The notes below the pieces were generated by a model. The model worked only from the letters and a program-made list of their open reading frames with translations, was not told the DNA's origin and did no database searches. From the NCBI RefSeq assembly GCF_900221005.1, contig NZ_OBQI01000001.1, positions 992,001 through 1,056,000 on the forward strand: a stretch of DNA of 64,000 bases, written 5' to 3'. The first letter of the stretch is position 1; each line of letters opens with the position of its first letter. This document shows positions 8,748 through 35,212 of the stretch, one piece after another. Origin of the DNA: Blastococcus aggregatus. Lineage in GTDB: Bacteria; Actinomycetota; Actinomycetes; Mycobacteriales; Geodermatophilaceae. The position numbers were made by a program, and so were the translations under genes.

Positions 8748-8774
8748 ACCGTCGGCCGGGGCTGGGAGCTGGAG

Positions 8775-8861
8775 CGGAGGGCGTGGGATTCGAACCCACG
8801 ATGGGTGTTACCCCATAGCGGTTTTCAAGACCGCCGCCATCGGCCACTAGGCGAGCCCTCC
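8775..8861 (-). tRNA. tRNA-Ser (anticodon UGA)
   Basis: The minus strand folds as an 87-base class II tRNA. The acceptor strands are GGAGGGC (8855-8861) and GCCCTCC (8776-8782), with discriminator G at 8775. The anticodon stem-loop is GCGGT-CTTGAAA-ACCGC, giving anticodon TGA, which reads UCA and UCG codons. A long variable arm (TATGGGGTAACACCCA region) follows, and the T arm is GTGGG-TTCGAAT-CCCAC. CCA is not encoded. The 5' half, 8816-8861, lies inside the island's left repeat, so the gene is rebuilt by the integrated element. Confidence 0.96.
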
Positions 8862-8862
8862 T
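8816..8862. repeat. attL, left copy of the 47-bp core repeat
   Basis: It is identical to 35166-35212. It covers the tRNA-Ser sequence from the anticodon stem's 3' side to the 5' end. Together with the host-side 3' half (8775-8815) it restores a complete tRNA gene. Confidence 0.92.
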
Positions 8863-9057: not shown

Positions 9058-9315
9058 ATGAGCAACAGCAAGGGCGCCGCAGCGCCCCTCCACAAGCCCC
9101 GTCACCTCGTGTGGCTGACCATCGCCGACGTCCTCAACGACCTCGGCATCGACCGCGGCTCGTTCGACAAGTGGCGCAAGCGCGGTGTCGGCCCGCGGAT
9201 GAAGCTGCTGCCGAACCGCACCTGGCGCATCCGCGGGGACTGGTACGACGCCTGGTTGGCGAACCTGCCCGGCGAGAACTCGGACTACGACGGCGGCGCG
9301 GCGGTGGCGGCGTGA
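9058..9315 (+). CDS. Excisionase-like helix-turn-helix protein
   Basis: An 85-residue DNA-binding protein. The segment LVWLTIADVLNDLGIDRGSFDKWRKRGVGPRMKLLPNRTWRIRGDWYDAWLAN has the order of an AlpA/MerR-type winged helix as found in excisionases and helix-turn-helix partners of actinobacterial integrases. ATG 9058 is chosen because upstream codons in the frame show no domain. The integrase GTG overlaps its stop (GTGA), so the two are translationally coupled. The expected role is directing excision and regulating the integrase. Confidence 0.78.
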   Translation: MSNSKGAAAPLHKPRHLVWLTIADVLNDLGIDRGSFDKWRKRGVGPRMKLLPNRTWRIRGDWYDAWLANLPGENSDYDGGAAVAA

Positions 9316-10898
9316 GCCGGCGGCGCGACTGGTCCCCGACCGGCGTGCTCGTCCCCTGCAGCCGGGTCAAGCTGTACCGGCGCACCGTGCCGTCCGACAG
9401 CAAGCCGGAGAAGGTCATCGTGCGCCTGGCCGGGCTGCCCGGTGAGCGCAAGGAGTCGTTCCCCACCAAGACCGCGGCGAAGGCCTACTACGCCAGGCTG
9501 ACCGCAGCCGTCGGCCTCGGCGAGGACTTCGACACCGGCAGCTTCGCCCCGACCAACTGGGGACAGCCGTCCGCGCCCGAGCCGGCCGACCAGCCGATGA
9601 CCTGGCTGGCCTGGGTCTGCCAGCACATCGACGACATGGCCGCGGCTGGTGACAAGGGGAAGACGAAGAAGAGCCGGCACGAGGCGCTGAAGGTCGCGGT
9701 GTGGACGCTGGTCGATGACGTCCCGGACCACCCTGGCCGGGACGCGCTGAAGGCTTACCTCGAGGTCGTGGGCGACCCCGTCTTCGTCGACCCCGCGCTG
9801 CCGCCGACCCCTCGTGACGCCGAGCGTGCGCGGCTGCGCGCCGAGCGGCTGGCTCAGCTGCCCGACCAGGTCTTCGCCCGTCGCGGCTTCGGCACCCCCC
9901 GCCGCGACGTGTACCTGCCCCGCGCGGAGGTGCTCACCGCCGGCGAGTGGCTGACCGAGCACAGCCGTCCGGTCGCCTCCACCACGCAGGCAGACGCGAA
10001 GGCGGTGCTGACCGCGTACACGTTCAAGCTCGACGGCACCTTCTCCGCGTCGACCACCCGCAACCGGCTCCGCAACGTGTTCCACAAGGCGCTCGTGGAC
10101 GCCGTCGTCGCCGACCTGCTACCCGCCAACCCGATGGACCACCTCAGCCTCCGCACCTACGCCTCGGCGACGGTGCGCACCATCGACCGGCGCATCGCGA
10201 TGGACCCGGTCATGGCCGAGGCGTTCCTTGACCACGTCGATGACCCGTACCGAGCGCTCGCCGCGCTGATGGTCCGTGAGGGACTCCGCCCCTCCGAGGC
10301 GGTCGCGGTGCGCGACTCGTGGCTGACCCTCCCGAAGCAGGGCTGGGGCGAGGTGGAGCTCCAGCACGCGGTGGTTGCCGCGGGCACGAGGTGGACGAAG
10401 GAGGAGACGCTCGCCTACGACGAGAACCCTCCGAAGTGGTCGGACCGCGCGGACAAGCCGACTACGCGGCTCGTGCCGCTGTCCCCGGAAACCGTCGATG
10501 ACCTCCGCGCGCACAAGAAGGCCTTCGGCTCCGACGGGGAGGGGCGCCTGTTCCGTGCCGCCCGCGGAGGCCCCGTCAACCCGACCGGGCTCGGCCGGGC
10601 CATCGCCGCGGCCCGCGACGCTACGTTCGCCACTGCGGACAGCCCGCACTTCATCGCGCGGGAGGATCACCCGCTTCGGACGATGACCGCCTACCTGCTC
10701 AGGCACACCGCCGCGAGTCACGCGCTGAACGCCGGGGTGCCACCGAAGGACGTAGCGGACCGAATGGGCCACGACGTGCCGGTCCTCCTCAAGGTCTACG
10801 CCTCGGTCATCGACGCCGACCGCGCCATCGGAAACCAGCGCATGGAGACCTACCGCGCCAACCACCGCGCGGCGGCCCTGCAGCCGCTGGCCAGCTGA
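9312..10898 (+). CDS. int: Tyrosine site-specific integrase of the island
   Basis: A 528-residue tyrosine recombinase that should integrate and excise the island at tRNA-Ser. The N-terminal arm-binding part (VKLYRRTVPSDSKPEKVIVRLAGLPGERK) and the SAM-like core-binding domain (about 210-270) precede the catalytic domain. Box I is EGLRPSEAVAV (Arg near 325). Box II is LLRHTAASHALNAG, followed by MGHDVPVLLKVYAS with the nucleophilic Tyr near residue 495. The GTG at 9312 overlaps the excisionase stop. Location 450 bp from attL, pointing inward, is standard. The strong hairpin at 10910-10947 follows. Confidence 0.94.
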   Translation: MSRRRDWSPTGVLVPCSRVKLYRRTVPSDSKPEKVIVRLAGLPGERKESFPTKTAAKAYYARLTAAVGLGEDFDTGSFAPTNWGQPSAPEPADQPMTWLAWVCQHIDDMAAAGDKGKTKKSRHEALKVAVWTLVDDVPDHPGRDALKAYLEVVGDPVFVDPALPPTPRDAERARLRAERLAQLPDQVFARRGFGTPRRDVYLPRAEVLTAGEWLTEHSRPVASTTQADAKAVLTAYTFKLDGTFSASTTRNRLRNVFHKALVDAVVADLLPANPMDHLSLRTYASATVRTIDRRIAMDPVMAEAFLDHVDDPYRALAALMVREGLRPSEAVAVRDSWLTLPKQGWGEVELQHAVVAAGTRWTKEETLAYDENPPKWSDRADKPTTRLVPLSPETVDDLRAHKKAFGSDGEGRLFRAARGGPVNPTGLGRAIAAARDATFATADSPHFIAREDHPLRTMTAYLLRHTAASHALNAGVPPKDVADRMGHDVPVLLKVYASVIDADRAIGNQRMETYRANHRAAALQPLAS

Positions 10899-13296: not shown

Positions 13297-13383
13297 ATGC
13301 CTCTCAGCCGCCCACCGGCGCCTGCCCCGGCGGCCGCCGCGGTGCGCGGCGTCCCGGTGCGCCACGCAGTCAAGCGCGCATGA
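13297..13383 (+). CDS. 28-codon leader ORF overlapping the restriction-modification start
   Basis: A short frame from ATG 13297 encodes a 28-residue Ala/Pro/Arg-rich peptide. Its TGA overlaps the ATG of the downstream gene (ATGA). The downstream ATG has no clear ribosome site of its own, so translation of this leader could feed ribosomes into it. It is too short for a functional call, and it may be chance. Confidence 0.35.
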   Translation: MPLSRPPAPAPAAAAVRGVPVRHAVKRA

Positions 13384-16300
13384 CGGTCCCTGGTCGGCTG
13401 GCTGCCGATGTCGCCGCCGCGGTCTCCACCTTCGGCGCCGCTGTCGCCCCCCGGCTGGCGAGCGGAGCAGGCGAGCCCGAAGACCAGATCCGAGGGCCGC
13501 TCGAGAACCTGCTGGACACGGCGGCCGCTGCACTCGGCGTGCGCTTCTCCGCGGTGGGCGAGGCGTCGCTGGCTGACCTGCGCGTCCGCCCGGACTACGC
13601 CACCCTGGTCAACGACGCGATCACCGGCTACGTAGAGGTCAAGCGCCCCGGGCGGGGAGCCGACCCGACGCGGTGGCCGGCCGGCAGCCACGACGGGATC
13701 CAGTGGGCCAAGCTCAGGGCGCTACCCAACGTGCTCTACACCGACGGACAGCAGTGGGCGCTGTACCGCACCGGCGAACGCATCGGCGAGATCGCGACGC
13801 TCACCGGTGACATCCACACCGCAGGCGCCGCGCTTACCGCGTCGGACGAGGGCTTGGCCCGGCTGCTGTCGGAGTTCCTGCTGTGGCAGCCGGTGGCCCC
13901 GCGCTCGATCTCTCAGCTCGTCAACTCCGTCGCTCCGCTCACCAGGCTGCTGCGCGAAGAGGTCACCGACACCCTGACCCGTGAGCAGCGCGTCGGCGAC
14001 GGCCCATTCAGCCGGGTCGCCACAGACTGGCGCGCGCTGCTGTTCCCCGACGCCGACGACGCCGCTTTCGCTGACCAGTACGCGCAGGCGGTCACGTTCG
14101 CCCTGCTGCTGGCCCGAACCGAGGACATCGAGTTCGCTGGCAAGTCCGTCGACGCCATCGCCCGAGAGCTCGGTCGGACGCACTCGCTGTTGGGCAAGGC
14201 GCTGTCTGTGCTCACCGACGAGACGATCGGCGTCCTGACCGTCACCCTGGACACGCTGGTTCGGGTCATCGCCGTGGTGGACTTCGGGCGGTTCGCCCAC
14301 CACCGAGCCGACCCCTACCTGCACCTGTACGAGCACTTCCTGGCCGAGTACGACCCTGCGCTGCGCAGGCTGACCGGCTCCTACTACACCCCCGCGGCCG
14401 TGGTCTCCGGCATGACCCGCCTCACCGACGAGGTGCTGCGCACCCGCCTCGGCCGTTCGGCCGGGCTGGCCGACCCGACCGTCACCATCGTCGATCCGGC
14501 GATGGGCACCGGCGCATACGTCCTCGACGTGCTGGAGACCGTCGCCGACAACGCCCGCTCCGAGCAGGGCCCCGGCGCAGTACCCGCACAGCTGAAGGAC
14601 GCCGCCGCCCGAATCGTCGGGGTGGAAAAGCAGGCCGGGCCGTTCGCCGTCGCCGAGCTCCGCGTCGCCGAAGCTCTGCACCGGCACGGTGCGGTGGCGC
14701 CGGCCGGCGGCGTGCGCCTCTACGTCGCCGACACCCTGGACAACCCCTTCGCCGAGCAGGCCCGGCTCGCCGCGACCCTCGACCCGATCGCGATCTCCCG
14801 CCGCTACGCCAACAAGATGAAGGCCGAGGAGCCCGTCGTCGTGGTGCTGGGCAACCCCCCGTACCGGGAGCGGGCGAAGGGCCAGGGCGGCTTCATCGAG
14901 GACGGCGCTCCGAACACCGCGCAGTGGGCAACCCCACCGCTGGCCGCCTTTCGCGAACCCGGCAACGGCTTGGCCGAGTACGTCCTCAGCAACCTGTACG
15001 TCTACTTCTGGCGCTGGGCGACGTGGAAGGTGTTCGACGCCCACCCCGACAGCGGCGACGGGGTCATCTGCTTCATCACCACGTCCGGGTACCTCAAGGG
15101 ACCCGGGTTCGCCGGCATGCGGCGCTACCTGCGCGCTCACGCCTCCGAGGGCTGGATCATCGACGGCACACCGGAGGGCCACCAGCCCGACGTGAACACC
15201 CGCATCTTCGGGGGCGTGCAGCAACCCGTCGCGATCGGCCTCTTCGTCCGTCGCAGCGACAACGACCCCGAGGTGCCTGCCCCGGTGCACTACCGGGCGC
15301 TACACGGCCGGCAGTCGGAGAAGTTCGACGCGCTCAAGGCGATCAGCGTCGACGAGCCCGACGGTTGGGAGGACTGCCCCACCGGATGGACCGCCCCGTT
15401 CCTGCCGGCCGGCGGCGACGAGTGGGCAGCCAGTCCCGCACTGGAGGACCTCTTCCCGTGGCAGAGCCCGGGCGTCAAGCCGAACCGGACCTGGGTGTAC
15501 GCACCCCTGCCGAACACGCTCATCCAACGCTGGCGCACCCTGGTCACCGCACCGGACGACGAGAAGCCCGACCTGTTCCGAGAGTCTCGGGATGCCAGCC
15601 TGACGCGGAGCAAACCGGGACTGCCCGGATTCGAGCACCCCGCTGGTCCTGTCGCCAACGAGAGCGGCCCGTGCCTGCCGCCGGTGCAGGTCGCCTACCG
15701 GTCCTTCGACCTCCAGTACGTCATCCCGGACGACCGCGTGCTGTCGACGCCCCGAACAGACCTGTGGCGGGTCCGTGGTGAGCACCAGCTGTACGTCACA
15801 GAGCTGCACTCTGAGGCAATCCGGCCAGGTCCGGCGCTCACGTTCGCGGCCCACACTCCGGACATGCACCACTTCAAGGGCAGCGGGGGTGGTCGCGTCC
15901 TCCCGCTGCACGCCTCCGCCGACCGCAGCCGACCGAACGTCGCACCCGGCCTGCTCGACCTGCTCGCCGAGCACCTCGACGTGGAGGTCGGCCCGGAGGA
16001 CTTGATCGCCTACGTCGCCGCGGTGACCGCTCATCCCGGGTTCGCCGCCCGATTCGCCGAGGATCTGCGCACCCCGGGCATCCGTGTTCCGCTGACCGCA
16101 GACCCTGACGTGTGGTCCGCCGCCGTCACCCTCGGCCGGAGGATCCTGTGGCTACACACCCGCGGAGAACGAATGGCGGATCCTTCGGCCGGCCGTCCCG
16201 CCGGGCTTCCGCGGATCGCCGACGAGTCGGCCCGGCCGAAGGTGCTCACCGCCGTCCCGGACTCGCCCGATGGGATGCCGGACGAGCTCGGCTACGACCC

Positions 16301-16709
16301 TGCCACGCGTGTCCTGTCCGTTGGTGAGGGCCGGATCGGACCGGTCGCCCCGGAAGTCTGGGCCTACGAGGTGTCGGGGATGAACGTCCTCCGGAAGTGG
16401 TTCGGCTACCGGCGTGCGACGAGGCCCAGGACGCGCGGCGAACAGTCCCCGCTCGACGACATCAGACCGACCTCCTGGCCTGCGGCGTACACCTCCGACC
16501 TGCTCCAGCTGCTTGAGGTCCTCACCCTCGTGACGCAGGCAGAGCCCGAGCAAGCAGAGCTCCTCGAGCGCGTCATGAGCGGCGCAAGCATCACCGTGGC
16601 CGACTTGACCGATGCCGGCGTCCTCCCGGTGCCGTCCGACCGGCGCAACCTGCCGCGCCCCACGGCGGCATCGACAACGCCGGAGCAGATCCTCATGCCG
16701 GAGGCATGA
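13380..16709 (+). CDS. Single-chain restriction-modification enzyme (type IIG-like, type ISP-type C-terminus)
   Basis: A 1109-residue fusion. Residues ~1-170 look like a PD-(D/E)xK nuclease: RPDYATLVNDAITGYVEVKRPG gives the D...ExK triad, followed by WALYRTG. A helical linker leads to an N6-adenine methyltransferase core with SAM motif I VDPAMGTGAYVLDVLE near 372 and catalytic motif IV LGNPPYRER near 491. Residues ~740-930 (YRSFDLQYVIPDDRV, FAAHTPDMHHFKG, IAYVAAVTAHPGFAARF) match the C-terminal target-recognition part of type ISP enzymes. The helicase block of true type ISP proteins is missing. It should methylate and cut DNA in one polypeptide. No separate S or R gene is present. Confidence 0.82.
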   Translation: MTVPGRLAADVAAAVSTFGAAVAPRLASGAGEPEDQIRGPLENLLDTAAAALGVRFSAVGEASLADLRVRPDYATLVNDAITGYVEVKRPGRGADPTRWPAGSHDGIQWAKLRALPNVLYTDGQQWALYRTGERIGEIATLTGDIHTAGAALTASDEGLARLLSEFLLWQPVAPRSISQLVNSVAPLTRLLREEVTDTLTREQRVGDGPFSRVATDWRALLFPDADDAAFADQYAQAVTFALLLARTEDIEFAGKSVDAIARELGRTHSLLGKALSVLTDETIGVLTVTLDTLVRVIAVVDFGRFAHHRADPYLHLYEHFLAEYDPALRRLTGSYYTPAAVVSGMTRLTDEVLRTRLGRSAGLADPTVTIVDPAMGTGAYVLDVLETVADNARSEQGPGAVPAQLKDAAARIVGVEKQAGPFAVAELRVAEALHRHGAVAPAGGVRLYVADTLDNPFAEQARLAATLDPIAISRRYANKMKAEEPVVVVLGNPPYRERAKGQGGFIEDGAPNTAQWATPPLAAFREPGNGLAEYVLSNLYVYFWRWATWKVFDAHPDSGDGVICFITTSGYLKGPGFAGMRRYLRAHASEGWIIDGTPEGHQPDVNTRIFGGVQQPVAIGLFVRRSDNDPEVPAPVHYRALHGRQSEKFDALKAISVDEPDGWEDCPTGWTAPFLPAGGDEWAASPALEDLFPWQSPGVKPNRTWVYAPLPNTLIQRWRTLVTAPDDEKPDLFRESRDASLTRSKPGLPGFEHPAGPVANESGPCLPPVQVAYRSFDLQYVIPDDRVLSTPRTDLWRVRGEHQLYVTELHSEAIRPGPALTFAAHTPDMHHFKGSGGGRVLPLHASADRSRPNVAPGLLDLLAEHLDVEVGPEDLIAYVAAVTAHPGFAARFAEDLRTPGIRVPLTADPDVWSAAVTLGRRILWLHTRGERMADPSAGRPAGLPRIADESARPKVLTAVPDSPDGMPDELGYDPATRVLSVGEGRIGPVAPEVWAYEVSGMNVLRKWFGYRRATRPRTRGEQSPLDDIRPTSWPAAYTSDLLQLLEVLTLVTQAEPEQAELLERVMSGASITVADLTDAGVLPVPSDRRNLPRPTAASTTPEQILMPEA

Positions 16710-17358: not shown

Positions 17359-17371
17359 GTCCGCAGTCTGC

Positions 17372-17400
17372 GTTTCGTCGACGCGCAGCATCGACGAAAC
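17372..17400. promoter_or_regulatory. Perfect inverted repeat upstream of the methyltransferase
   Basis: GTTTCGTCGA (17372-17381) is repeated in inverse at 17391-17400 with a 9-base spacer. It ends 14 bases before the preferred methyltransferase start, a position that fits a repressor operator. If the longer frame is used instead, it would be coding. Confidence 0.45.
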
Positions 17401-17452
17401 ACGCCCGTCCGGAACGTGCCGTGACCGGCCCGTGATCAGGCGGCCGAACGCG

Positions 17453-17492
17453 GCCGGCCCCGGGGCCGCCATGTGGCAGCCCCGGGGCCGGC
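17453..17492 (-). terminator. Hairpin terminator
   Basis: A perfect 14-bp GC stem (17453-17466 with 17479-17492) and 12-base loop lies 44 bases after the 17536 gene's stop, between it and the methyltransferase. Confidence 0.7.
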
Positions 17493-18822: not shown

Positions 18823-18905
18823 CTCATTGCGCACCCATCGCCACCCCGGACCGGTGCTGTCCGGCGCGCCCGCGCCGTCACACCACCGACGAGAGGGTTC
18901 CCCCG

Positions 18906-19457
18906 ATGGCCAAGAAGACCAGTAGGGAGCGCGGCAGCACGACCCGCGAGCTCCGGGACATGCACACCGGTGAAGTCGTCCTCGCCATCACCCCGAAGGC
19001 CCAGCTCCACTACGAGCAGTTCACGTTGGTCTTCTGCCACCCGATGCAGACGTTGCTGCTCACCCAAGGACGCCGGCACGAGCGGGACTCGGCGCTGCGC
19101 CCGGTGCACTGGCGACTGCTGTGGTGGGTCATCGCCAGCATCAGCTACGAGAACCGGATCGACCGGTACGTGGCAGACATCGCACGCGACCTCGGCAACG
19201 ACCGCAGCACCGTCAGCAAGGCGCTGCGCGTGCTGCAGGACCGCGGCCTGATCCGAACCCACCGCGAGGGCCCCGGGCGACCGCTGACGATCCTCATCCA
19301 CCCCGCCCTGTGCTTCCGCGGAAAGGCGAAGCAGCGTGCCGCGGTCTTCAGGGAGCACTGGGGCAACACACCCCTCCCGCCCGCGCTCGGCGGGTGGACG
19401 CCGGCAGCTCAAACGACCGCCGAACCGGAATGGACCGCCCCGCACGGTGCCGGCTGA
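18906..19457 (+). CDS. RepL-like winged-helix protein (putative replication initiator)
   Basis: A 183-residue protein. The central part resembles RepL/RepA-type winged helices of small plasmids: FTLVFCHPMQTLLL, then HWRLLWWVIASISYENRIDRYVADIARDLGNDRSTVSKALRVLQDRGLIRTHREGPGRPLTILIHPALCFRG, i.e. helix-turn-helix (DRSTVSKALRVL) plus a wing ending in the conserved 'NP...F.G' type turn. ATG 18906 has GAGAGGG upstream. The inverted repeat at 18781-18822 lies upstream. A plain transcriptional regulator is the alternative. If it is a replication protein, the island may replicate after excision. Confidence 0.58.
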   Translation: MAKKTSRERGSTTRELRDMHTGEVVLAITPKAQLHYEQFTLVFCHPMQTLLLTQGRRHERDSALRPVHWRLLWWVIASISYENRIDRYVADIARDLGNDRSTVSKALRVLQDRGLIRTHREGPGRPLTILIHPALCFRGKAKQRAAVFREHWGNTPLPPALGGWTPAAQTTAEPEWTAPHGAG

Positions 19458-20091: not shown

Positions 20092-20284
20092 CACCTGGCG
20101 GTGCGTGCCCGTCGACGGGCGCTGCGGGCGTCGGCGCCGCAGCGGCTGCCGGATGATCGGGGGCGTCTCTCGTCGGTGACTGCCCGAAGGGCGGCGGCCG
20201 GAACTGGCGCCCAGGAGCTGGCGCACTACCAAGCATGCGACGGAAGCCCTTGTGGGCTTGGACGCAGCGCCGAGCGGTGTCGGC

Positions 20285-20635
20285 ATGAACGAGCCCCTGT
20301 CCGTCCGTCCTGTCCCCCGGTACCGACTCGTGGCCGGCAAGCACCGCGCCACCAGAACCAACGACCTGCCGACGCTGGCCGACGCCCTCGCTCAGCTCGG
20401 TCACGAGGCTCGAGGCGACGATGCGCTCGGCGCCGACTGGGCCTGCTGGGCCGACTGGTGCTGGCGAGCCGGAGTTCCCCCGCTGCCGGCTTCACCGGAG
20501 ACTGCCCAGGCCTTCGCGGCGGACGTCGCAGGCGACATGCCGGATGCCGACGCCCTCCTCGACATCATCGTCGTCGTCGGAGACCGGCACCGCGCCGCCG
20601 GTCATCGTGACCCGTTCGACGGGCGCATCCGGTGA
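20285..20635 (+). CDS. Stand-alone core-binding domain of a tyrosine recombinase
   Basis: A 116-residue protein that matches only the N-terminal SAM-like (core-binding) domain of tyrosine recombinases: ALGADWACWADWCWRAGVPPLPASPETAQAFAADVAG and DRHRAAGHRDPFDG are the classic helices, but no catalytic domain follows. Its TGA overlaps the GTG of a full recombinase (GTGA). It may be a separate subunit that assists the next two proteins, or the relic of a split gene. Conserved coupling and an intact frame favour a functional small protein, but this is inference. Confidence 0.62.
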   Translation: MNEPLSVRPVPRYRLVAGKHRATRTNDLPTLADALAQLGHEARGDDALGADWACWADWCWRAGVPPLPASPETAQAFAADVAGDMPDADALLDIIVVVGDRHRAAGHRDPFDGRIR

Positions 20636-22116
20636 CCCGCCGTGGGGCCGCACCACGGGCGCCACGAGTGGTGAAGGACATGAGTGCGCTGGACGCAGGC
20701 ATCAGCGCGCTGCTGGATCTGGCCCACCACGCGCCACGGACCCTGGGCCTGGCCGACGAGGAGCAGCGCAAGCTGGCGGAGTGGGCCGCTGCGCACGGCA
20801 ACGGTGTGACTGCGATGCCCGCGCTCCCGGTCGTCGTTGCGTCTTACCTGGCCTGGATGGCCGCAGGGGAGGTGGACGTGGACGGCCGTGTCCTGCGGAG
20901 GCCGTACGCGCGCAGCACGATCCGCATCGCCCGTGGCGGCATAGGGCTGGCTCACCGCCGCGCCGGGGCGTCGGACCCGACCGCCGACCCCTACGTGCGT
21001 GCAGTGATGCGTGGCATCGCCCGCTGCCTGTGGATTCGCCGCCCCCGCCAGCAGGATCCGCTCACCGACGACCTGCTGCTCAAGCTCGTCACCCTGCGCC
21101 CGCCGCTGCCGGCGGTCACCGCCGTTCGCGACCGCGCCGCGGTGCTGGTCGCTCGCGCCACCGGCATGACGCTCACCGAGGTGGCCGCCCTGCCCCGCTC
21201 CGCCCTGACCATCCTCGCCGCCCGGGCAGTCCTGCGCCTGCCCACAGGCCCGGTCACCCTGGCATGCCGGTGCACCGCGCCGGCCGGCGAACTGCTGTGT
21301 CCGGTCGCCGTACTGCGTGACCTGGACGCCGACCTGCCGGCCCGGGCTGAGCTCTTGTTCGGCGTCGTGCACGCCGACCGGAACCGGGGAGCCGGTCCGT
21401 TGACCTACCCGGAGTCTGCGGCGACCGAACGGGTCCTGCGCGCCGTCCAGGCCGCGGTCTGCGGGGCCGGCGTGCGCTGGCCGGCGCGTGCGCCGCTGCC
21501 GGTGCACGACGACGACGCCCTGGCGCTGCTGATGGCCCGGCTGGACCCGGAGACGACAACGTGGGTGCGCGACACCGCCGCCCTCTTGGTGGGCTGGCAC
21601 CTTGCGCTGCGTGGCGGGGAGGTGGGCGGGGCCCTGGCGATGGCCGACCTAACCCGCGATCCCCTGGGCTACACCGCGAGGCTGGGCCGCACCAAAGGCG
21701 ACCAGGTCGCGGCCGGCACTCCGTTGAGCCTGATGTCGACACGTGAGCCGCTGCTGAACCCGGTTGCCGCGCTAGATGCATGGCTGCTTCGCCGCGGCCG
21801 AGACTCCGGACCGGTGTTCACCTCGATGCACGGCGGCCGTCCCCGGCTCGACCGGCCGATGACGACCACCTCGGTGAGCAGGACAGTGCGCGCTCGCGCG
21901 GCCGCGGCGGGCCTGACCGGCCGCTACTCGAGCCACTCGCTGCGGATCGGCTTCGTCGTCACCGCGGTCAAGCTCGGTGCGTCCATCCCCGACCTCATGA
22001 CGGTCACGCGGCACCGTGATCCCGACATGGTGGGCTACTACGCCCGCGGGCTGCGCGGCCGGGCCGACCCGAAGGTCCTCGCCGAGGTGCTCGGCTGGAA
22101 GGAGCCGGCCGCGTGA
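20632..22116 (+). CDS. Long tyrosine recombinase, first of a coupled pair
   Basis: A 494-residue tyrosine recombinase. The core-binding region covers about 40-135 (SYLAWMAAGEVDVDGRVL...STIRIARGGIGLAHRRAG). A first box-I-like segment, RDRAAVLVARATGMTLTEVAALPRS, lacks the Arg (GMTL instead of GLR). A second, complete catalytic part has box I HLALRGGEVGGALAMADL (Arg near 327), box II SSHSLRIGFVVTAVKLGA, RHRD, and the nucleophile in MVGYYARG near 469. The protein thus looks like a recombinase with an inserted degenerate catalytic-like domain. It overlaps its neighbours on both sides by 4 bases. Confidence 0.82.
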   Translation: MTRRGAAPRAPRVVKDMSALDAGISALLDLAHHAPRTLGLADEEQRKLAEWAAAHGNGVTAMPALPVVVASYLAWMAAGEVDVDGRVLRRPYARSTIRIARGGIGLAHRRAGASDPTADPYVRAVMRGIARCLWIRRPRQQDPLTDDLLLKLVTLRPPLPAVTAVRDRAAVLVARATGMTLTEVAALPRSALTILAARAVLRLPTGPVTLACRCTAPAGELLCPVAVLRDLDADLPARAELLFGVVHADRNRGAGPLTYPESAATERVLRAVQAAVCGAGVRWPARAPLPVHDDDALALLMARLDPETTTWVRDTAALLVGWHLALRGGEVGGALAMADLTRDPLGYTARLGRTKGDQVAAGTPLSLMSTREPLLNPVAALDAWLLRRGRDSGPVFTSMHGGRPRLDRPMTTTSVSRTVRARAAAAGLTGRYSSHSLRIGFVVTAVKLGASIPDLMTVTRHRDPDMVGYYARGLRGRADPKVLAEVLGWKEPAA

Positions 22117-23570
22117 GCACCGCGATTCCGGCCTCCCGGCCGGCGGAAGTAGCCGCCGCCAACCGGATGGCGGCAGCCCACATCGGCGAGCGGACCCGCA
22201 GGCGGACAGCCAAGACCGCCGCCCGGTACGACAAGTGGGCAGTCGCGAACTTCCAGCCGCAGGTGCCCGCGGCCGATGCGGAGGCGATCACCCGCTGGCT
22301 GCACGCACACCTCGACCTGTGGGGGCACGGGACGATGGGGGTGTACGTCGACGACCTGCGCCGGGCGCAGCTTGCGGCCGGGGGCGCGGATCCAACCGGC
22401 GGCATGGTCCGGGACTACCTGTCGGCGGTCGGGCGCACGAAGGGGCGTCGGACGCTGCCCCGCGTCGTCGCCCTCGACCTAGCGGAGATGGCGCGGGCCG
22501 CGGAACGGGACCTGCACTCCGAGCAGCCCGGCGGGCGGCTGCTCGAGCTGCGCGGCGAGGTTGCGGTCCTGTTGACCCATGCACTGGACGTACCGCTGGG
22601 CCAAGTGGCCGGCATCGAGCTAGACACAGTCACGGCGACCGCCGCCGGGCTACATCTGACCGTGCCTCCCCACCGCGGCATCGGCCGCACCACGCCGGCA
22701 TCGGAGGCGCGCACCGTCATGCTGGCCCGGTCCGGTCGCGCACTCGACCCGGTGGCCGCCGTTGAGGAGTTGCTGGAACTGCTGCCGGCGGGCACGACCC
22801 GGCTGCTCGGCTTCGGCCTGCGTCGCGCCGGCGGGCGGCAGACGCCGGCGGCGACCGAGGCCGGGGTTCCTCAGCTGGTCTCCCGCATCCGCGCCCAGCT
22901 CGTCGCTGCCGCCGTCCGCGCCGGCCTGGACCCGGCGTCTCTCGGGGATGACGGGTGCGGGGCCGGCCTCAGCGACGCGGACACCGGATGGCTGCTCGCC
23001 CACCTGAACCCGAGCATGGTGCGGCAGCTGCGCGACCTCACCTACGGCCTGCTGGGGACCGCCACGGCCAGCCGCCACGCCGGCCTGGCCGATCTGGAAA
23101 TCCGCGACCTTGAGGCCACCGACACCGGGTGGGACGTGCGGTTCCGGCAGGAGAAGAACAACCCGGAGGGCGTCGAAGAGCTGGTCCGCGTCAGGCCGGT
23201 GGACCACGAGGCCGAGAGCCGCGCGGGATGCCTGGCGTGGTGCCCTGCCTGTGCCCTCGACCGGTGGTTGCTCGTCATGCGCCGCTGTTGGCTCGTCGAG
23301 CACGGCCTGCTCCTTCCGGCGATGCACGGCAACCGCGGTCCGAGCGGCCCGCTGGACGACTGGTACGGAACGCAGATCCTCCGGGGGCTGCTCGGCCGGG
23401 ACGACGTGAGCACCCGCTCGATGCGGGCGGGCACGATCACCGCACTACGCGCCGAAGGGGCAGACTTCCGCGCTATCGGGGATGTCAGCGGGCACCGGTC
23501 GATGCCGCAGCTCACCCGCTACCTGCGGATCGTCGACCCACACTCGGGCCAGTACCACCCCCCGCTCTGA
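22113..23570 (+). CDS. Long tyrosine recombinase, second of a coupled pair
   Basis: A 485-residue relative of the 20632 protein. The N-terminal core-binding region (RTAKTAARYDKWAVANFQPQVPAADAEAITRWLHAHLD) is followed by a degenerate catalytic-like segment (LTHALDVPLGQVAGIELDTV) and then the active-looking part: box I TASRHAGLADLEIRDLE (Arg near 320), box II STRSMRAGTITALRAEGAD (the usual HxxR is RSMR), GHRSM and the Tyr in LTRYLRIVDP near 469. A CPAC motif lies before box II. GTG 22113 overlaps the upstream stop (GTGA). It likely acts together with the 20632 protein in one recombination reaction. Confidence 0.8.
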   Translation: MSTAIPASRPAEVAAANRMAAAHIGERTRRRTAKTAARYDKWAVANFQPQVPAADAEAITRWLHAHLDLWGHGTMGVYVDDLRRAQLAAGGADPTGGMVRDYLSAVGRTKGRRTLPRVVALDLAEMARAAERDLHSEQPGGRLLELRGEVAVLLTHALDVPLGQVAGIELDTVTATAAGLHLTVPPHRGIGRTTPASEARTVMLARSGRALDPVAAVEELLELLPAGTTRLLGFGLRRAGGRQTPAATEAGVPQLVSRIRAQLVAAAVRAGLDPASLGDDGCGAGLSDADTGWLLAHLNPSMVRQLRDLTYGLLGTATASRHAGLADLEIRDLEATDTGWDVRFRQEKNNPEGVEELVRVRPVDHEAESRAGCLAWCPACALDRWLLVMRRCWLVEHGLLLPAMHGNRGPSGPLDDWYGTQILRGLLGRDDVSTRSMRAGTITALRAEGADFRAIGDVSGHRSMPQLTRYLRIVDPHSGQYHPPL

Positions 23571-23574
23571 CGCG

Positions 23575-23730
23575 GTGCTGGCATGCGTGGCGTTGGGCAG
23601 CTCGGGCATGCGGGTCACGAAGCGGTCGGCGTCGCCCTTCTCCGGTGACGTCTTCTTGCGCTGTCGGCCGTCCGGCTCGCGGAACGCGGACGTCGTAGAC
23701 CTTTACCTCCCGCCCCGTCCGCCGGGTCAT
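23575..23730 (-). pseudogene. Frameshifted N-terminal fragment of an integrase-like protein
   Basis: On the minus strand MTRRTGREVKVYDVRV continues, after a one-base frame change, as FREPDGRQRKKTSPEKGDADRF. The joined sequence resembles the arm-binding N-terminus of actinobacterial integrases (strand 'VYDVR..', then a basic loop and helix). The rest is missing because the frame runs into the end of the 22113 gene. It is probably a fossil of an earlier insertion. The 23571-23908 gap holds nothing else I can support. Confidence 0.38.
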
Positions 23731-23908
23731 GCGGGGCCCGACGCTAGCCACGGTCCACCCCGGGCGCGGCTGCGAGGGCGTCGAGCTGGGTGCGCACTCG
23801 GTCCAGGTCGACCCGGGCCTGCAGCATCAACGACGGCCTCACCGTCGAGGCGCTCGGGGCCTGAAGCTCGCGGGCTCCCCGCCGTCTGCTTCGCCGATCA
23901 TGGTTGGC

Positions 23909-24067
23909 ATGACTGTCTGGGAGTACAAGGTCGTCGAGCCCAACATGAAGATCCGCGACCGCATCGAGGTCATGGAGAGGGAATTCAACCATGTGGGAGA
24001 GGAAGGCTGGGAGCTCTGCAGTGACCACGCCGGCTCCTACACCTTCAAGAGGCCCCGACCGGCCTGA
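23909..24067 (+). CDS. DUF4177 small protein
   Basis: A 52-residue protein with the DUF4177 pattern: it begins MTVWEYKVVEP, has an amphipathic helix (RDRIEVMEREFNHVGEEGWELCSD) and ends with SYTFKRP. These small beta-alpha proteins occur widely, also in mobile elements, and their function is unknown. ATG 23909 is chosen because WEYKVV is normally at the N-terminus; an ATG three codons upstream also exists. A strong hairpin (24095-24129) follows. Confidence 0.72.
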   Translation: MTVWEYKVVEPNMKIRDRIEVMEREFNHVGEEGWELCSDHAGSYTFKRPRPA

Positions 24068-24094
24068 CCACCGCGGCGCCCGCCGCCTGAGCTC

Positions 24095-24129
24095 GCTGGG
24101 CCCGCCGGCGTGGGATCGGCGGGCCCAGC
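24095..24129. terminator. Bidirectional hairpin terminator
   Basis: A perfect 13-bp GC stem (24095-24107 with 24117-24129) and 9-base loop lies between the convergent DUF4177 gene and the 24139 gene, and can end both. Confidence 0.82.
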
Positions 24130-24138
24130 GCAGATCAG

Positions 24139-24534
24139 CTAGTCCTGCTCGGGCACGTCGGACCGCTCGACGATGCGGATCTCCCGGCCGACCAGCGCCC
24201 GGAGCCGCAGGCGGAGCTCGAACATGTGCGTCATCTGCTGGAGCACCTCGTACGGGTCCACGTCGTGGATCAGGAAGTCCGTCGCCCGGACCTCGCCCTG
24301 CCCGTGGATGTCCGTGCCCGCCGGGACGGCGACCACGTGCAAGCTGTGCCGGTGCTCGCCGCCGCCCAGGTCCAGGCCGACGATCATCCAGTCGTCCTGG
24401 TCCAGGCCGACCAGCTCGTACAGCGACCGGCCCGTCATGCGCTCGTCGAGCTGCGCGGTGCCTTTCCAGTCCGGGTAGGTGACTTCCGCGTCGCCCCACA
24501 GGTAGTCCTCATCGACAGTCACTAGCTGCTCCAT
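24139..24534 (-). CDS. Hypothetical acidic protein
   Basis: A 131-residue soluble, acidic protein I do not recognise. Strand-rich segments (DDWMIVGLDLGGGEHRHSLHVVAV, EVRATDFLIHDVDPYEVLQQM) lead into a helix (MFELRLRLRALVG) and end VERSDVPEQD. No catalytic residues stand out. ATG 24534 has no clear ribosome site, but codon use supports the full frame. Its low pI recalls DNA-mimic anti-defence proteins, which is speculation only. The upstream gap to 24825 carries no supported gene. Confidence 0.55.
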   Translation of the reverse strand: MEQLVTVDEDYLWGDAEVTYPDWKGTAQLDERMTGRSLYELVGLDQDDWMIVGLDLGGGEHRHSLHVVAVPAGTDIHGQGEVRATDFLIHDVDPYEVLQQMTHMFELRLRLRALVGREIRIVERSDVPEQD

Positions 24535-24825
24535 TCGAGTCGCGGGTGCTTGTCTCCGTCGGGCGACGGGGACGGATCTTGCCGAGGTCGTGCGTGATCG
24601 GCTCAGGACCGCGGGGGCGCCCGCCGGCCCTCCCGACTGGAGGACCGGCGGGGCCTTCTTCCGCGCCGAGCTACGTGGGGCACACCGGCATCGACCGTCT
24701 CAGACTCATCACAAGGCGCAGGGGCGGCTTGGGCGGACTACAACGGTTGGTGCAGAGTGTGCAGTCCTAGACACCGACGCTCGACGGCTTCTGCTGGCAG
24801 GCTTCCGGCCGCCGAGATGTCAGGC

Positions 24826-25038
24826 CTAGGGGAACAGAGGTCGGGGGGCGCTCACGAAGGTCCAGAACGCGCACTCACCAGACCGCCCGATGCAGGGCGG
24901 GAGGGTCGAGTGCTGGCGGATGAACGCCCGCTGGCCGTACTGGTCTCGCCAGTAGCCAGCCTTCGGGCACCGCTGTCCTGTCTTCCAAGCGCCTCCCGGA
25001 CCGAGCGGGGCACCGAGACGTCGCGTGTAGCGGGCCAC
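24826..25038 (-). CDS. YjzC-like small cysteine-rich protein
   Basis: A 70-residue protein with the pattern of small YjzC-type zinc-ribbon proteins: KTGQRCPKAGYWRD, then a short loop with LPPC, and a C-terminal ECAFWTFV. In the family the Cys before Pro-x-Gly-x-Trp is typical. GTG 25038 has GGGAGAGG upstream at a suitable distance. It is divergent from the 25069 gene with only 30 bp between them, so the promoters must overlap. Function of the family is unknown. Confidence 0.55.
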   Translation of the reverse strand: MARYTRRLGAPLGPGGAWKTGQRCPKAGYWRDQYGQRAFIRQHSTLPPCIGRSGECAFWTFVSAPRPLFP

Positions 25039-25068
25039 GGATCACCGCCTCTCCCGTGGAAGGAGTGG

Positions 25069-25266
25069 ATGACCTTGCAGACGAACTTGTGCCGGGGGAC
25101 CGCGACACCGCTGCTGTCGTGCTCGTGCGGAAGTCAGTGGTGGACCCTGGATGGTCCCGACGCCACGACGCCGCCGCAGGTCACGCTGGGGCGCGACGGC
25201 ACGATCGGCGGGTACGTGGGCGTCGTTCGATGTGGGGACTGCGGCCGGCCAGCTCCGGTGGGCTGA
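25069..25266 (+). CDS. Small zinc-ribbon-like protein
   Basis: A 65-residue protein with two CxCG/CxxCG-type knuckles: LSCSCGSQWWTLDGP and VVRCGDCGRPAPVG, about 38 residues apart, with strands between them (QVTLGRDGTIGGYVGVV). This is the layout of a zinc ribbon. ATG 25069 is well supported by AAGGAG 4 bases upstream. It is divergent from the YjzC-like gene. A regulatory or anti-defence role is possible but nothing in the sequence shows it. Confidence 0.6.
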   Translation: MTLQTNLCRGTATPLLSCSCGSQWWTLDGPDATTPPQVTLGRDGTIGGYVGVVRCGDCGRPAPVG

Positions 25267-25426
25267 CGACAGCGGTCGAGCATCGAGCCGCCCGGGGTGT
25301 CCGGGCATTCCGGGTCCTTGTGCGTTGGAGGCGTCAGGTCGGGGGGCGAGTCCAACCTCTGGGCCTCTCGACGGTAGCCGAACACGCGTGCGAACCAAGC
25401 GCGACGCGCCGACATGTCGACACGAA

Positions 25427-25498
25427 ATGCAACCAAGCGGGACCTCGGAGCTACCACGAGGTCCCGCTCAGTTGCATGGAGCGGGGGCCAACCCGCTC
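25427..25498. other. Structured region, possible small RNA or attenuator
   Basis: A long hairpin joins 25427-25433 with 25471-25477 and 25436-25447 with 25457-25468. It is followed at once by a second hairpin, 25479-25485 with 25492-25498. The arms CCCGCTC at 25463 and 25492 can both pair with the GAGCGGG at 25479, so two alternative folds exist. It lies in a gene-free stretch 160 bp after the zinc-ribbon gene; it may simply be its terminator. Confidence 0.45.
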
Positions 25499-25916
25499 AA
25501 GACGTCCTCCAACGGACGGATCCCAGCATGCCCGGTTCGGGTGACGTTGTCACGTGACAGGACGGTGTCGCGTACACCACTTTCCCCGCTTACGTCCACC
25601 GCTTGTGCACAACGTGATCCACAGGATGGCGGCTGGATGCGCCGCGGGCAGCCTGGGGTCAGCAGCGCCCGGGGGACGCCGTCATGCCCACCTCGTCGGT
25701 GCTCTCGAGCGCCGCGTCGCGCAGCAGCGGGAGCAGCGCCTCAGCCGCGGCCCACGTCAGGGTGATGGTCGCGGCCGCCGTCGTGAGGGCGATGACGGCG
25801 TCGGACCCCTCGGGGCGATCTGGGTGCGGTCACCGTCGTGCTCGGCGGTGGCGCTGCACCACGCCGGGTGTACGGGGGTGGCGATCTGCTGACGACCGCG
25901 CCTTGGGCACGGGTCC
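25499..25916. other. Gene-free stretch
   Basis: About 420 bp between the structured region and the end of the 25917 recombinase. Only a short start-less hydrophobic frame (DAVIALTTAAATITLTWAAAEALLPLL, minus strand around 25680-25800) looks protein-like, perhaps a gene fragment. I can support no gene. Confidence 0.4.
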
Positions 25917-27635
25917 TCATCCAGCCGCAGCGACCCGGCGGCTCAACAGGCGCCGTGCAGGGTCGTTGACCCGGCGGTCCTCGGCGCGTGCGTAGCCGAT
26001 CAGAACCTGCACGCTCTTGTGCTTGGTGATCTTCTGGATCTCCGGGATGGGGAAGCCCAGGCGGATCAGCTCGGTCACCAGTCCGATTCGGAGGCTGTGC
26101 GCGCCGTACTTGCCCGGGTCGAGGCCGATGCGTGAGACGTAGAGCTGCACGAGCGCGTTGATGGCCTCGCCGGAGAGCGACTGGAAGCGGTCGCGCCCTG
26201 GGACCCGGTCGATGCTGTCGTGCCGGTCGACGGGGGCGAACACCGGCCAGTCGGGGATGACCTCCTCGGGCGGCCCACCGACGATGCGAGCGACGGCGGT
26301 GCGCCAGGCGTGCAGCGCGCGGCCTGGGTTGAGCACGTCGGTGGGATCGGGAGAGACCGGAACCGACACCAGGGTGTCCTCCGCCTCCCCGTCCTGGTTG
26401 GTCTTGGACCACTTCAGGTCGATGACGAAGCCCTCCTCGTCGATCGAGTCGAAGTGCTCCCAGCGCAGGTAGCTCAGGTTCGACCGACGCATCGCGGTGA
26501 TCCACCCGGTCGTCAGCACAGCCTCATCGCGCACTTGACCGAGCGTCGGGGCGGCCAGCGCCAGCAGCACCTGGCGCAGCTCTCCGTCGCTGGCACCGGC
26601 CAGGGCCGTGCGTCCGGCGAGTCCGGCCAGCCGCCGGACCGCCTTCGCGACGCCCTGCTTGGTCAGCGGCCTGCGCTCGACCGACGTCGCCTCGGCCCCG
26701 TCCTCGGCGACCGTGGTCGCTGTCCGTGGCACCGCGAGCAGCGGCGTGTCCGGCGCGAGCACGCCGTTCTCCCCGGCCAGTTGCCGCAGCTGGACGGCGA
26801 GCAGCTCCACCGGGCAGGTCGCCGGGTCGCCGGTCGCGGCGAACACCACCTCGACCTCGCCGGAGGCGCCCTTGTGCGGGCTGGGCAGCCGGACGATGGC
26901 CTCGCGGCGCGTGAGTTCGACTCGCCCGCAGGTCAGCCGAGCGAGGACCCCGGCCCCGGCCGCCGGCCGGGACGCCAGCAGGGCCAGCGCCCGATCACGG
27001 GCGACACCGGGCTCGACGGTGCGGACCTCCCGGACGATGCGCTCGAGCTTGGCCCGGTCGATGGCCGCCTTGCGGCAGTCCTTGTGCACACCGAAGGTGC
27101 GCCGGATGCCGCGGACGACGTTGCTGACGTACCGGTCGTCGGAGGGCCGAGGGAACCGGTTCGACGCGTGGTAGCGGTTGATGGCCGTCAGATGGACACC
27201 CATCGACTGCGGTCGCAGCTTGCCGCGCTGCGGCTTGCCCTCGTCGGTGAACAGCACCTCGCCCGCCTCGTTGTAGGCCAGCGCCAGCGAGGTCAGGTAG
27301 GCGCCGACGACGACCGGTTCGGCTGGGAGGGCGGCCACGCCCCGCTCCTCGCACCAGTCGCAGAACGCCTGCCAGGCCGCGTCGTAGTTGCGCTGGGTGT
27401 TGGAGGCCAGCGCCCTCTGGCTCAGCTCGACACTGTGGAGGGCGTGGACGCCGAGCTTCGTTAGCGTCTCCGCGTCGACCTCCGGCAGCGGCATCATCGG
27501 CGCCATCCGCGGTGACACGATCCCGCGGCCCGCGAGCAGCGACGCCATCGTCTCGTCGACGAGCTCGCCGACGACGATCTCGCCCAAGTCGTCGGTGACG
27601 GCGGTCGAGAGGGGCACGGGCAGGGTGGTCGTCAC
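25917..27635 (-). CDS. Long tyrosine recombinase, third of the same layout
   Basis: A 572-residue recombinase with the same order as the 20632 and 22113 proteins. The core-binding domain is SNTQRNYDAAWQAFCDWCEERGVAALPAEPVVVGAYLTSLA, about 100-140. A degenerate catalytic-like segment (ARDRALALLASRPAAGAGVLARLTC) follows. The complete catalytic part then has ITAMRRSNLSYLRWEHF (Arg near 381), GAHSLRIGLVTELIRLGF near 513, KHKSV and the Tyr in LIGYARAED near 547. GTG 27635 is chosen because AAGGAG lies 5 bases upstream and the longer frame adds unlikely sequence. It faces the recombinase trio and may be its partner. Confidence 0.82.
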   Translation of the reverse strand: MTTTLPVPLSTAVTDDLGEIVVGELVDETMASLLAGRGIVSPRMAPMMPLPEVDAETLTKLGVHALHSVELSQRALASNTQRNYDAAWQAFCDWCEERGVAALPAEPVVVGAYLTSLALAYNEAGEVLFTDEGKPQRGKLRPQSMGVHLTAINRYHASNRFPRPSDDRYVSNVVRGIRRTFGVHKDCRKAAIDRAKLERIVREVRTVEPGVARDRALALLASRPAAGAGVLARLTCGRVELTRREAIVRLPSPHKGASGEVEVVFAATGDPATCPVELLAVQLRQLAGENGVLAPDTPLLAVPRTATTVAEDGAEATSVERRPLTKQGVAKAVRRLAGLAGRTALAGASDGELRQVLLALAAPTLGQVRDEAVLTTGWITAMRRSNLSYLRWEHFDSIDEEGFVIDLKWSKTNQDGEAEDTLVSVPVSPDPTDVLNPGRALHAWRTAVARIVGGPPEEVIPDWPVFAPVDRHDSIDRVPGRDRFQSLSGEAINALVQLYVSRIGLDPGKYGAHSLRIGLVTELIRLGFPIPEIQKITKHKSVQVLIGYARAEDRRVNDPARRLLSRRVAAAG

Positions 27636-31245: not shown

Positions 31246-31627
31246 TCAGGTGGCGGCTGGGGTGAGGCTGAAGGCGGCGCGCTCAAGGTAGGCCCACAAC
31301 TGCGCCTCGTGGGTCGGCGCTCAGTCGCAGGTCCTTGACCGCGGCCCGCATGTGCCTGACCCACCGGTCGCGGGTGTCTTCGTCCATGCGGAAGGTGGCG
31401 TGCCGCATCCGCAGCCGAGGGTGTCCGCGCAGTTCGCTGTACCTACGGGGTCCGCCCCAGTACTGGGCCAGGAAGGCGGTCATCCGCTCGCGAGCCGGGC
31501 CCAGGTCGGCGGGGTACATGGCGCGCAGGACGGGGTCGGTGGCGACGCCGTCGTAGAAGCGGTCGACGAGCCGGACGAAGGTGTCCTGCCCGCCGACCGC
31601 TTCGTAGAACGAGGGGGCGTCGATCAC
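31246..31627 (-). pseudogene. Truncated haemoglobin (group II type), frameshifted near the C-terminus
   Basis: The first ~100 residues are a clear group II truncated globin: [23 protein letters not shown], then [32 protein letters not shown] with the proximal-His helix, and [20 protein letters not shown]. The frame then ends early at 31283. One base fewer in the GGG run at 31311-31313 restores the family C-terminus ([20 protein letters not shown]) and a stop at 31246. It is therefore either a fresh frameshift mutation or a sequencing error. The GTG start overlaps the sulfurtransferase stop (GTGA). The protein would bind O2 or NO. Confidence 0.85.
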
Positions 31628-35165: not shown

Positions 35166-35212
35166 TAGCGGTTTTCAAGACCGCCGCCATCGGCCACTAG
35201 GCGAGCCCTCCT
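35166..35212. repeat. attR, right copy of the 47-bp core repeat (5' half of tRNA-Ser)
   Basis: It is identical to 8816-8862. Only the 5' half of the tRNA is present, followed to the right by what should be the native upstream region of tRNA-Ser. On the minus strand a TAGAGT, resembling a -10 box, lies about 12 bases upstream of the tRNA 5' end. Confidence 0.92.

Follow-up and report, generated by a model that had tools for sequence, protein, structure and literature searches.

A recurrent set of three long tyrosine recombinases and a small core-binding-like protein inside a tRNA-borne island of Blastococcus aggregatus

The locus described here bears on the need of certain elements for three or four proteins of the recombinase family. 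It lies in a 64,000-nucleotide stretch of the Blastococcus aggregatus genome (contig NZ_OBQI01000001.1, positions 992,001 to 1,056,000 of the forward strand), referred to in its full length as the window, and comprises four genes, P1 to P4, encoding one small protein that resembles part of a core-binding (CB) domain and three long tyrosine recombinases. An earlier note on the same DNA had described three genes overlapping by 4 bases each and a third long recombinase of 572 residues on the other strand, 2.3 kb away, and both statements are confirmed: the two overlaps, P1/P2 and P2/P3, are each GTGA, and P4, at 25917-27635 on the minus strand and convergent with P1-P3, ends 2.35 kb from the end of P3. 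The reading favoured here, with roughly even chances of being right, is that P1-P4 form one multi-subunit tyrosine-recombinase machine, a compact module nested in tRNA-borne defence islands. The set and its parts, with lengths in amino acids (aa), are as follows.

20285..20635, plus strand: P1, small protein of 116 aa, ATG start; residues 41-112 match the CB domain
20632..22116, plus strand: P2, recombinase of 494 aa with CB domain, truncated extra catalytic copy and catalytic domain; PF00589 at E 3.6e-8
21046..21483, plus strand: truncated extra catalytic copy of P2, residues 139-284; hhalign 97.1%
22113..23570, plus strand: P3, recombinase of 485 aa with CB domain, an unassigned middle of ~166 aa and catalytic domain
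25917..27635, minus strand: P4, recombinase of 572 aa, GTG start, with CB domain, truncated extra copy and complete catalytic domain; PF00589 at E 1.3e-11
26607..27071, minus strand: truncated extra catalytic copy of P4, residues 189-343; hhalign 97.6%, also found by hmmsearch
25920..26606, minus strand: complete catalytic domain of P4, residues 344-572; hhalign 100%, E 3e-50

The P1 frame is also open from an in-frame GTG at 20252, and the P4 frame is open upstream of its GTG as far as a TTG at 27833. PF00589 lies above the Pfam cut-off in P2 and P4 and below it in P3 (0.027); the Pfam scan found no domain in P1.

As far as sequence comparison can tell, P1-P4 are not chance neighbours, because the same partners recur in four genomes despite identities of only ~26-41%. 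In a sample of 112 genomes of the family (that of Blastococcus and Geodermatophilus), where the window genome is G000, Blastococcus mobilis G026 and Geodermatophilus sabuli G053, a P3 search matched five at E <= 1e-3, four of them with full-size P3-like genes (G000, G026, G053 and G101); the fifth match, in G017, is an ordinary integrase. A P4 profile, built from three of the four genomes with full-length P4 (G101 was not among them), matched eight of the 112 at E <= 1e-20, at full length only in the same four (E <= 3.9e-131). All four genomes with P3 and P4 also carry P2, and three carry P1; the four sets all come from this one family, and the window genome holds no second copy of P4 or P3. 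The order P1-P2-P3 with a convergent P4 is found in the window and in G. sabuli, B. mobilis has a same-strand array in which P4 leads (P4-P1-P2-P3), and G101 has P2-P3 and then, ~12.7 kb further, a convergent P4, so that the conserved order short-long-long, proposed earlier as a point to compare, is kept in three loci and lacks the short gene in the fourth. Neighbouring genes overlap by 4 bases at six of the seven junctions examined, with start codons as chosen, and by 11 bases at the seventh. Pairwise identity among the four sets is 31.7-41.0% for P4, 26.1-31.1% for P2 and 28.5-32.3% for P3, and the P4 and P3 trees agree in separating the window and B. mobilis from G. sabuli and G101 (support 99 and 83), a split that the P2 tree does not resolve (42). 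On the same comparisons, the facing recombinase P4 appears to be a conserved fourth component of the set and not a bystander.

The three long proteins had been thought to share one layout, a CB domain followed by a degenerate catalytic-like segment and an intact catalytic part; this holds for P4 and P2 and was not reproduced for P3. Profiles of the CB domain (105 columns) and the catalytic domain (199 columns) were built from 146 P4 relatives with a single catalytic domain. Taken together, the profiles of this analysis come in part from the four sets themselves. Against the catalytic profile, hhalign places residues 189-343 of P4 on columns 3-139 of 199 (97.6%, E 4e-12) and residues 139-284 of P2 on columns 1-112 (97.1%, E 7.6e-11), and the catalytic part of P3 is recognised at 99.6% (E 7e-24); the middle of P3, residues 112-277, gives a weak alignment to columns 26-144 (29.8%, E 5.6e-4). 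In the control comparison with the CB profile, the extra-copy or middle segments of P4, P2 and P3 reach at most 0.3%. The P4 extra copy aligns with that of P2 at 88.8% and with the catalytic domain of P4 itself at 80.6%, and the P2 extra copy with its own catalytic domain at 75.1%. The corresponding values for the P3 middle are 0.1% against the catalytic domain of P3, 0.2% against the P4 extra copy and 6.1% against the P2 extra copy, comparisons that would speak against a common origin with the other catalytic copies or leave it open. With individual sequences as targets, hmmsearch detects the extra copy in all four P4 proteins (independent E-values of 6.4e-7 in the window and 1.7e-4, 9.1e-5 and 1.7e-5 in the others); the profile search of single P2 sequences gives 6.4e-4 in the window, 0.011 in B. 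mobilis, a non-significant 1.5 in G. sabuli and no match in G101, and none of the four P3 sequences falls below 0.1.

Box II starts at catalytic column 148, so the extra copy stops before box II and the catalytic tyrosine. By these alignments, therefore, the doubling of the catalytic domain in P4 and P2 is partial, and the doubled catalytic fold of the earlier note is to be narrowed to a truncated copy of its first part. In P4 the copy is supported both by profile alignment and by a confident AlphaFold model (pLDDT 85.1, pTM 0.78, 41 sequences in the alignment), in which a similar order of helices and strands occurs twice, at ~194-287 and at ~350-452, followed by just one C-terminal catalytic part. 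The top Foldseek match of this model is Cre (E 3.2e-11, TMt 0.72), whose 317 residues are spread across 495 columns, which fits the pattern expected of an insertion in P4. Structure prediction, the check that the earlier note had proposed, was thus informative for P4; the AlphaFold model of P3, made from 3 sequences, had a pLDDT of 40 and was discarded as too poor.

The catalytic residues, read from hmmalign columns (box I R, K, box II [H/R]xxR, box III [H/W] and Y), are R-K-H-R-H-Y in both P4 and P2 of the window and R-K-R-R-H-Y in P3, so that all six columns hold residues accepted for tyrosine recombinases and the intact R...[H/R]xxR...Y part announced for the three proteins is confirmed. 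Across the four loci, R, K, H, R, H and Y are complete in every P4; every P3 has the box II R-x-x-R, H and Y, and three of the four have the box I R and K, G101 not being aligned there. In P2 the R, K, R and Y are constant throughout, while the His positions read H, H, H and Y in box II and H, L, Q and H in box III (window, B. mobilis, G. sabuli and G101, in that order). The extra copies differ at the first of these positions: the box I arginine is replaced by G in P4 and by T in P2 of the window, the position reads G, T, T and T in the four P4 proteins, T and S in two P2 proteins and P and P in G167, a divergent relative described below, and the predicted lack of the arginine is borne out in all eight copies that align at this column (six of the 14 are not alignable there).

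P1 appears, by profile comparison, to be a partial CB domain of about two thirds the usual extent. The window protein matches the CB profile at E 1.6e-13 over columns 15-86 of 105 in a single-sequence search, and at 97.8% (E 8e-13, columns 20-86) with hhalign; there is no match to the catalytic profile (hhalign 0.2%). Its homologues match the CB profile at 4.8e-5 in G. sabuli and 3.2e-4 in B. mobilis, and in both genomes the protein is encoded by a separate gene of 83-87 aa. The description of P1 as nothing other than a CB domain is therefore right as to its kind and too generous as to its extent; fusion or absence of the small frame in homologues, named beforehand as the observation that would speak for ordinary adjacent integrases, applies to one of the four loci, G101, where no P1-like frame was found.

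The long layout is rare among relatives of P4, which were found at 79 or more loci in genome contigs and at least 80 in viral contigs. Among the matches listed, 150 of 163 frames cover the CB to the catalytic domain, with a span of 265-345 aa in 146 of them; spans of 548 and 549 aa occur only in the P4 homologues of B. mobilis and G. sabuli, and the other two, of 404 and 426 aa, belong to one frame of stretch L055 and to B. mobilis P3. None of the 77 listed viral frames that cover the CB to the catalytic domain in the P4 alignment exceeds 345 aa; the P2 alignment matched 14 loci in viral contigs. In a sample of 397 genomes of the order, the P3 profile matched 115 at E <= 1e-3, near its whole length only in G026, G101, G000 and G167, and an alignment of the P4 extra copy plus catalytic domain matched 49, of which the same four span both halves; matches in the remaining 45 start no earlier than position 113 of 271. 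G053 is absent from both lists and was presumably not drawn into this sample. At the level of the phylum, at least four of 396 genomes match the two-copy alignment, and only G000 spans both halves, a count to be taken as a lower bound; G547 (span 24-265, E 1.0e-15) sat at the search threshold. In the order of G547, three of 30 genomes match, and G547 is the only one to span both halves.

Two divergent relatives seem, from their gene content, to keep the multi-recombinase logic. G167, from another family of the same order (stretch L122 7904-10923), has two overlapping proteins of the layout CB domain, extra copy and catalytic domain, with the extra copy recognised at about 2e-14 and 4e-9 in the profile search; from the second of them the box I R is missing, as are both His and the Tyr, the two making an intact and degenerate pair. 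G547 (stretch L131 6162-10648 and 12390-15124) has a fused protein in which the CB and catalytic domains alternate (CB-CAT-CB-CAT), followed by a recombinase of the double type.

The surroundings of the set bear on what it may do, and in the window they are those of an integrated island.

8816..8862, no strand: left 47-bp island repeat, overlapping the tRNA-Ser gene, identical to the right copy
35166..35212, no strand: right 47-bp island repeat, identical to the left copy
8774-8861, minus strand: tRNA-Ser(TGA) gene, which carries the overlap with the left repeat
9111..10898, plus strand: the island's own ordinary integrase, 595 aa; PF00589 at E 3.8e-6, 27.2 bits (cut-off 27.1); phrog_1 at 9.6e-26
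13380..16709, plus strand: type IIG restriction enzyme-methyltransferase, defence cargo; PF18135 at 1.5e-73; PADLOC PDLC03631, 1074 bits

The island occupies 8863-35212 (26,350 bp) between exact 47-bp direct repeats, and in the relative G016 the repeat occurs once in the stretch, with the two outer flanks of the window on either side, that is, as an empty site. A distance of 248 bp separates its integrase from the left repeat, and from the set to the two island ends it is 11.4 kb and 7.5 kb. In G101 and G. sabuli an integrase-like gene lies next to a tRNA-Leu(GAG) gene. Beyond the set, as seen from this tRNA gene, the end of the tRNA recurs: in G101 as one copy of 22 bp at a distance of ~87 kb (stretch L284 14353), in G. 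sabuli as two copies of 19 bp at ~69 and ~76 kb (L286 5911 and 12947). ARAGORN recognises none of these copies as a tRNA gene; all three share further sequence on one side and mark the far ends of large islands, and the two in G. sabuli suggest tandem islands. With 22.0 bits, the integrase-like gene of G101 falls short of the PF00589 cut-off (27.1 bits), and that of G. sabuli, without a Pfam match, takes its label from similarity to the G101 gene (E 2.6e-125). On the 49-kb contig of B. mobilis, searches found neither a tRNA nor a match to these integrases. In three of the four cases, then, the set looks like a passenger of its island, and it is probably not what moves the island, because these islands, that of the window and two others, have separate tRNA-side integrases.

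All four sets have genes of the defence type at distances of 0.3-6 kb, as an association only. PADLOC identifies PD-Lambda-3_B and Wadjet JetD in B. mobilis and Lamassu LmuB in G101; the neighbour in G. sabuli is an AAA_5/EVE protein, which is presumed here to be McrB-like and whose AAA part matches PADLOC restriction models at 58 bits. In G547, the recombinases adjoin type I-G cas genes (Cas7g and Cas56g). Among the four neighbours tested in G167 there was no PADLOC match, and P1-P4 themselves match no PADLOC model at E 0.01.

Some further features of these islands may be recorded. A Dam-type methyltransferase at 16759-17472 of the window is 77% identical to one in G101 (L123 6564-7259), where it adjoins P4, and in this comparison no match that the sets share outside P1-P4 is stronger. 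A winged-helix protein at 18900-19457, just before the set, has a weak similarity to RepL that hints at a plasmid-like past of the island. Also in the island, the rhodanese gene at 31624-32457 seems to be a surplus copy: a stretch of 76% identity to it is present elsewhere in the genome, on contig C8, and many relatives in the genus hold one too. The islands of G088 and G101 have a Lamassu-type module in common (L220 12046-17197 and L011 1444-6342), and the similarity of G101 to that of G088 ends just before P2.

If the set is a nested module, it should have ends of its own, and the search for element ends that had been proposed led only to those of the island, which coincide with the tRNA-Ser gene and lie next to a different, ordinary integrase. 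Repeats were surveyed in three loci, among the 20-25 largest families of each, and the last 500 bases of the flanks were compared by Smith-Waterman alignment in nine pairs, each with 15 base shuffles. One pair, upstream of P4 and downstream of P3 in B. mobilis, scored 15.0 with a shuffle maximum of 14.5 and is not believed to represent ends; none of the other eight exceeded its own shuffle maximum. A few weak pairs that bracket the window set, among them an inverted one of 24 nt and 79% at 18675 and 27656 and a direct one of 38 nt and 71% at 19183 and 27988, are like the many other chance pairs and were rejected. Several results thus weigh against a single nested machine: neither the listed repeat families of the three loci nor the nine flank pairs gave convincing ends, and no empty site was seen for the set itself; the P1-like frame was not found in the stretches of G101, where P4 and P3 are also ~12.7 kb apart; the middle of P3 is not demonstrated to be catalytic-like, its model being poor; a second copy of P4 or P3 is lacking in the window genome; pattern scans of viral contigs, run with P3 as query and with its alignment, turned up no P3 relative; and no plasmid record was counted as covering 80% of P3, P4 or B. 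mobilis P2. The earlier suggestion of a multi-subunit recombination system nested in the island is, in consequence, sustained by the conserved set, by its small CB-like protein and by its position within the island, and falls short at the boundaries.

These same observations can be read in other ways. The set could be functional cargo, a defence, anti-mobile-element or DNA-switching system using recombinase chemistry on targets other than its own ends and travelling in tRNA islands as further defence genes do, which is possible if on the unlikely side; the defence-type neighbours of all four sets, the cas genes beside the G547 recombinases, the tRNA-side integrases of three of the four host islands and the failure to find ends for the set all agree with it. 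Nevertheless, defence genes abound in tRNA islands in general, neither P1-P4 nor the tested neighbours in G167 match PADLOC models, and the repeat searches saw no clear invertible target nearby. That the set instead served, earlier or as an alternative, to mobilise the large islands themselves, similar to that of the GInts and later joined by the tRNA-adjacent integrase, is improbable: GInts are indeed islands in which four genes form a recombination operon and the cargo varies (PMC5385486), and the set of G101 brackets ~12.7 kb of other genes, but the exact 47-bp ends of the window island sit at tRNA-Ser and its adjacent integrase, with the set well inside, and G101 and G. sabuli have a similar tRNA and integrase, with the tRNA-end copies beyond the set. 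Least plausible of all is that these are ordinary integrases, either chance neighbours or decaying relics. P2 has lost the box II or box III His in three of four members, and the second G167 protein has lost its box I R, both His and Tyr, as decay would have it; against this stand the same partners in four genomes at ~26-41% identity with uninterrupted frames, the mostly 4-base junction overlaps and the complete active site of P4 in all four loci.

If P1-P4 do act as one machine, P4 would be the main strand-exchange enzyme, P3 a second one and P2 mainly architectural, and P1 might be an accessory that occupies part of the binding site or bridges subunits, in the place that GinD, Srap or TnpC take in other systems. 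The extra catalytic copy would be unable to cut DNA and could be a partner built into the chain, a further clamp on DNA or a surface on which subunits dock, fixing a hetero-oligomer on asymmetric ends, and the natural substrate would be the module's own ends, so that the module could move within or between islands. A more specific and rather doubtful proposal is a class of tyrosine recombinase in which part of a second protomer, catalytically inactive, is built into the long subunits, such that pseudo-dimeric chains and a free CB-like P1, and not four equal monomers, make up an asymmetric synaptic complex. Chains with an inactive partial catalytic domain, together with a CB-like piece encoded by a separate gene, would in any case be informative as to how unequal subunits sit on DNA, and the locus points to multi-recombinase systems in the defence islands of Actinomycetota.

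The comparison of this set with known multi-recombinase systems relies mainly on published accounts. No description of a duplicated, tandem or degenerate catalytic domain in tyrosine recombinases appeared in titles and the beginnings of abstracts, and the literature on trios, Tn554 and GInts yielded no paper on this set, in both cases from mostly open-access papers. The recombinase-in-trio (RIT) elements consist of three overlapping recombinase genes with 4-8 bp overlaps in ~3.5 kb, often in predicted genomic islands (PMC3414803), and RitA has two CB domains in sequence (PMC8138268); the overlapping recombinase genes and the location inside islands are features in common, and the two CB domains of RitA recall P1 plus P2. 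In the present set P2 has one CB domain, and P1 corresponds to a partial second one made as a separate protein. Each RIT protein has a possible catalytic motif, in contrast to P1, which has none, and the present set has P2 and P3 of ~490 aa and a fourth protein, P4. Two plasmid stretches inspected for a RIT contained no annotated trio that was complete.

Tn554-like elements (tnpABC) carry more than one recombinase, one of them abnormally long, and often a small third protein (PMC3414803), and in this general arrangement they are similar to P1-P4. Their recombinase pair is of ~350 aa and 611-828 aa, unlike the 494, 485 and 572 aa found here. A trio of 404, 710 and 159 aa encoded by pNL1 is taken here to be Tn554-like from its gene lengths and Table 2 of PMC3414803; in this trio and in another overlapping one of pNL1, hhalign gave at most 0.4% for the P4 extra copy and at most 0.6% for P1, and P1 against the 159-aa third protein (TnpC-type, one single-sequence representative) gave 0.1%. 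The power of this test is low, the catalytic profile seeing the true domains at 95, 72, 13, 2 and 0.3% in the proteins of 404, 710, 463, 741 and 595 aa, and a degenerate copy in the pNL1 proteins could be missed because the true domains themselves are recognised at only 95% and 72%; as a weak test, the lack of a match to the Tn554-like trio agrees with the earlier view that the locus recalls Tn554-type logic but is unlike known members. The P2 profile touches the pNL1 protein of 741 aa at 9e-5 in one stretch. The other pNL1 trio, of 463, 595 and 741 aa (L271 2783-8180; NC_009426.1 102783-108180), has a middle protein annotated as hypothetical and is guessed here to be a GInt- or SE-type module.

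The strand-biased circularizing integrative elements (SEs; intA, tfp, intB and srap) combine two recombinases and a small protein with a further protein of recombinase fold that lacks the catalytic motif; recombination needs all of them. According to PMC10214605 they occur only in Gammaproteobacteria, with imperfect terminal inverted repeats and a 6-bp footprint. At the present loci, the repeat and flank searches gave no convincing end repeats. Gamma-mobile-trio (GMT) systems are described as mobile and as carrying many tools of defence and offence; P4 reaches 11.9 bits with the GmtZ model, whose cut-off is 600, and P1-P3 have no GMT match.

The GInts are also close in composition, with an operon of four genes, ginABCD, all essential, that encodes three recombinases and a small protein to which the part of PMC5385486 used assigns no separate roles; three recombinase-family proteins plus a small one, coupled genes and a cargo that often includes restriction-modification are shared with P1-P4. 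In GInts, the small gene is last in one operon on one strand, whereas here it precedes P2 wherever found and P4 is on the opposite strand in three of four loci (window, G. sabuli and G101). The GInt operon forms one end of an island that its direct repeats delimit, whereas the window set, at 20285-27635, lies within island ends at 8816-8862 and 35166-35212, which leaves room for a smaller nested element with unseen ends. The extra truncated catalytic copy of P4 and P2 also sets these proteins apart from the published description of GInts. In summary, the set appears to follow a general logic common to GInt, SE, Tn554-like and RIT elements and to be a member of none of the systems tested, the gene order and island position separating it from GInts, and a first gene with no catalytic domain, together with the presence of a fourth recombinase, from RIT elements.

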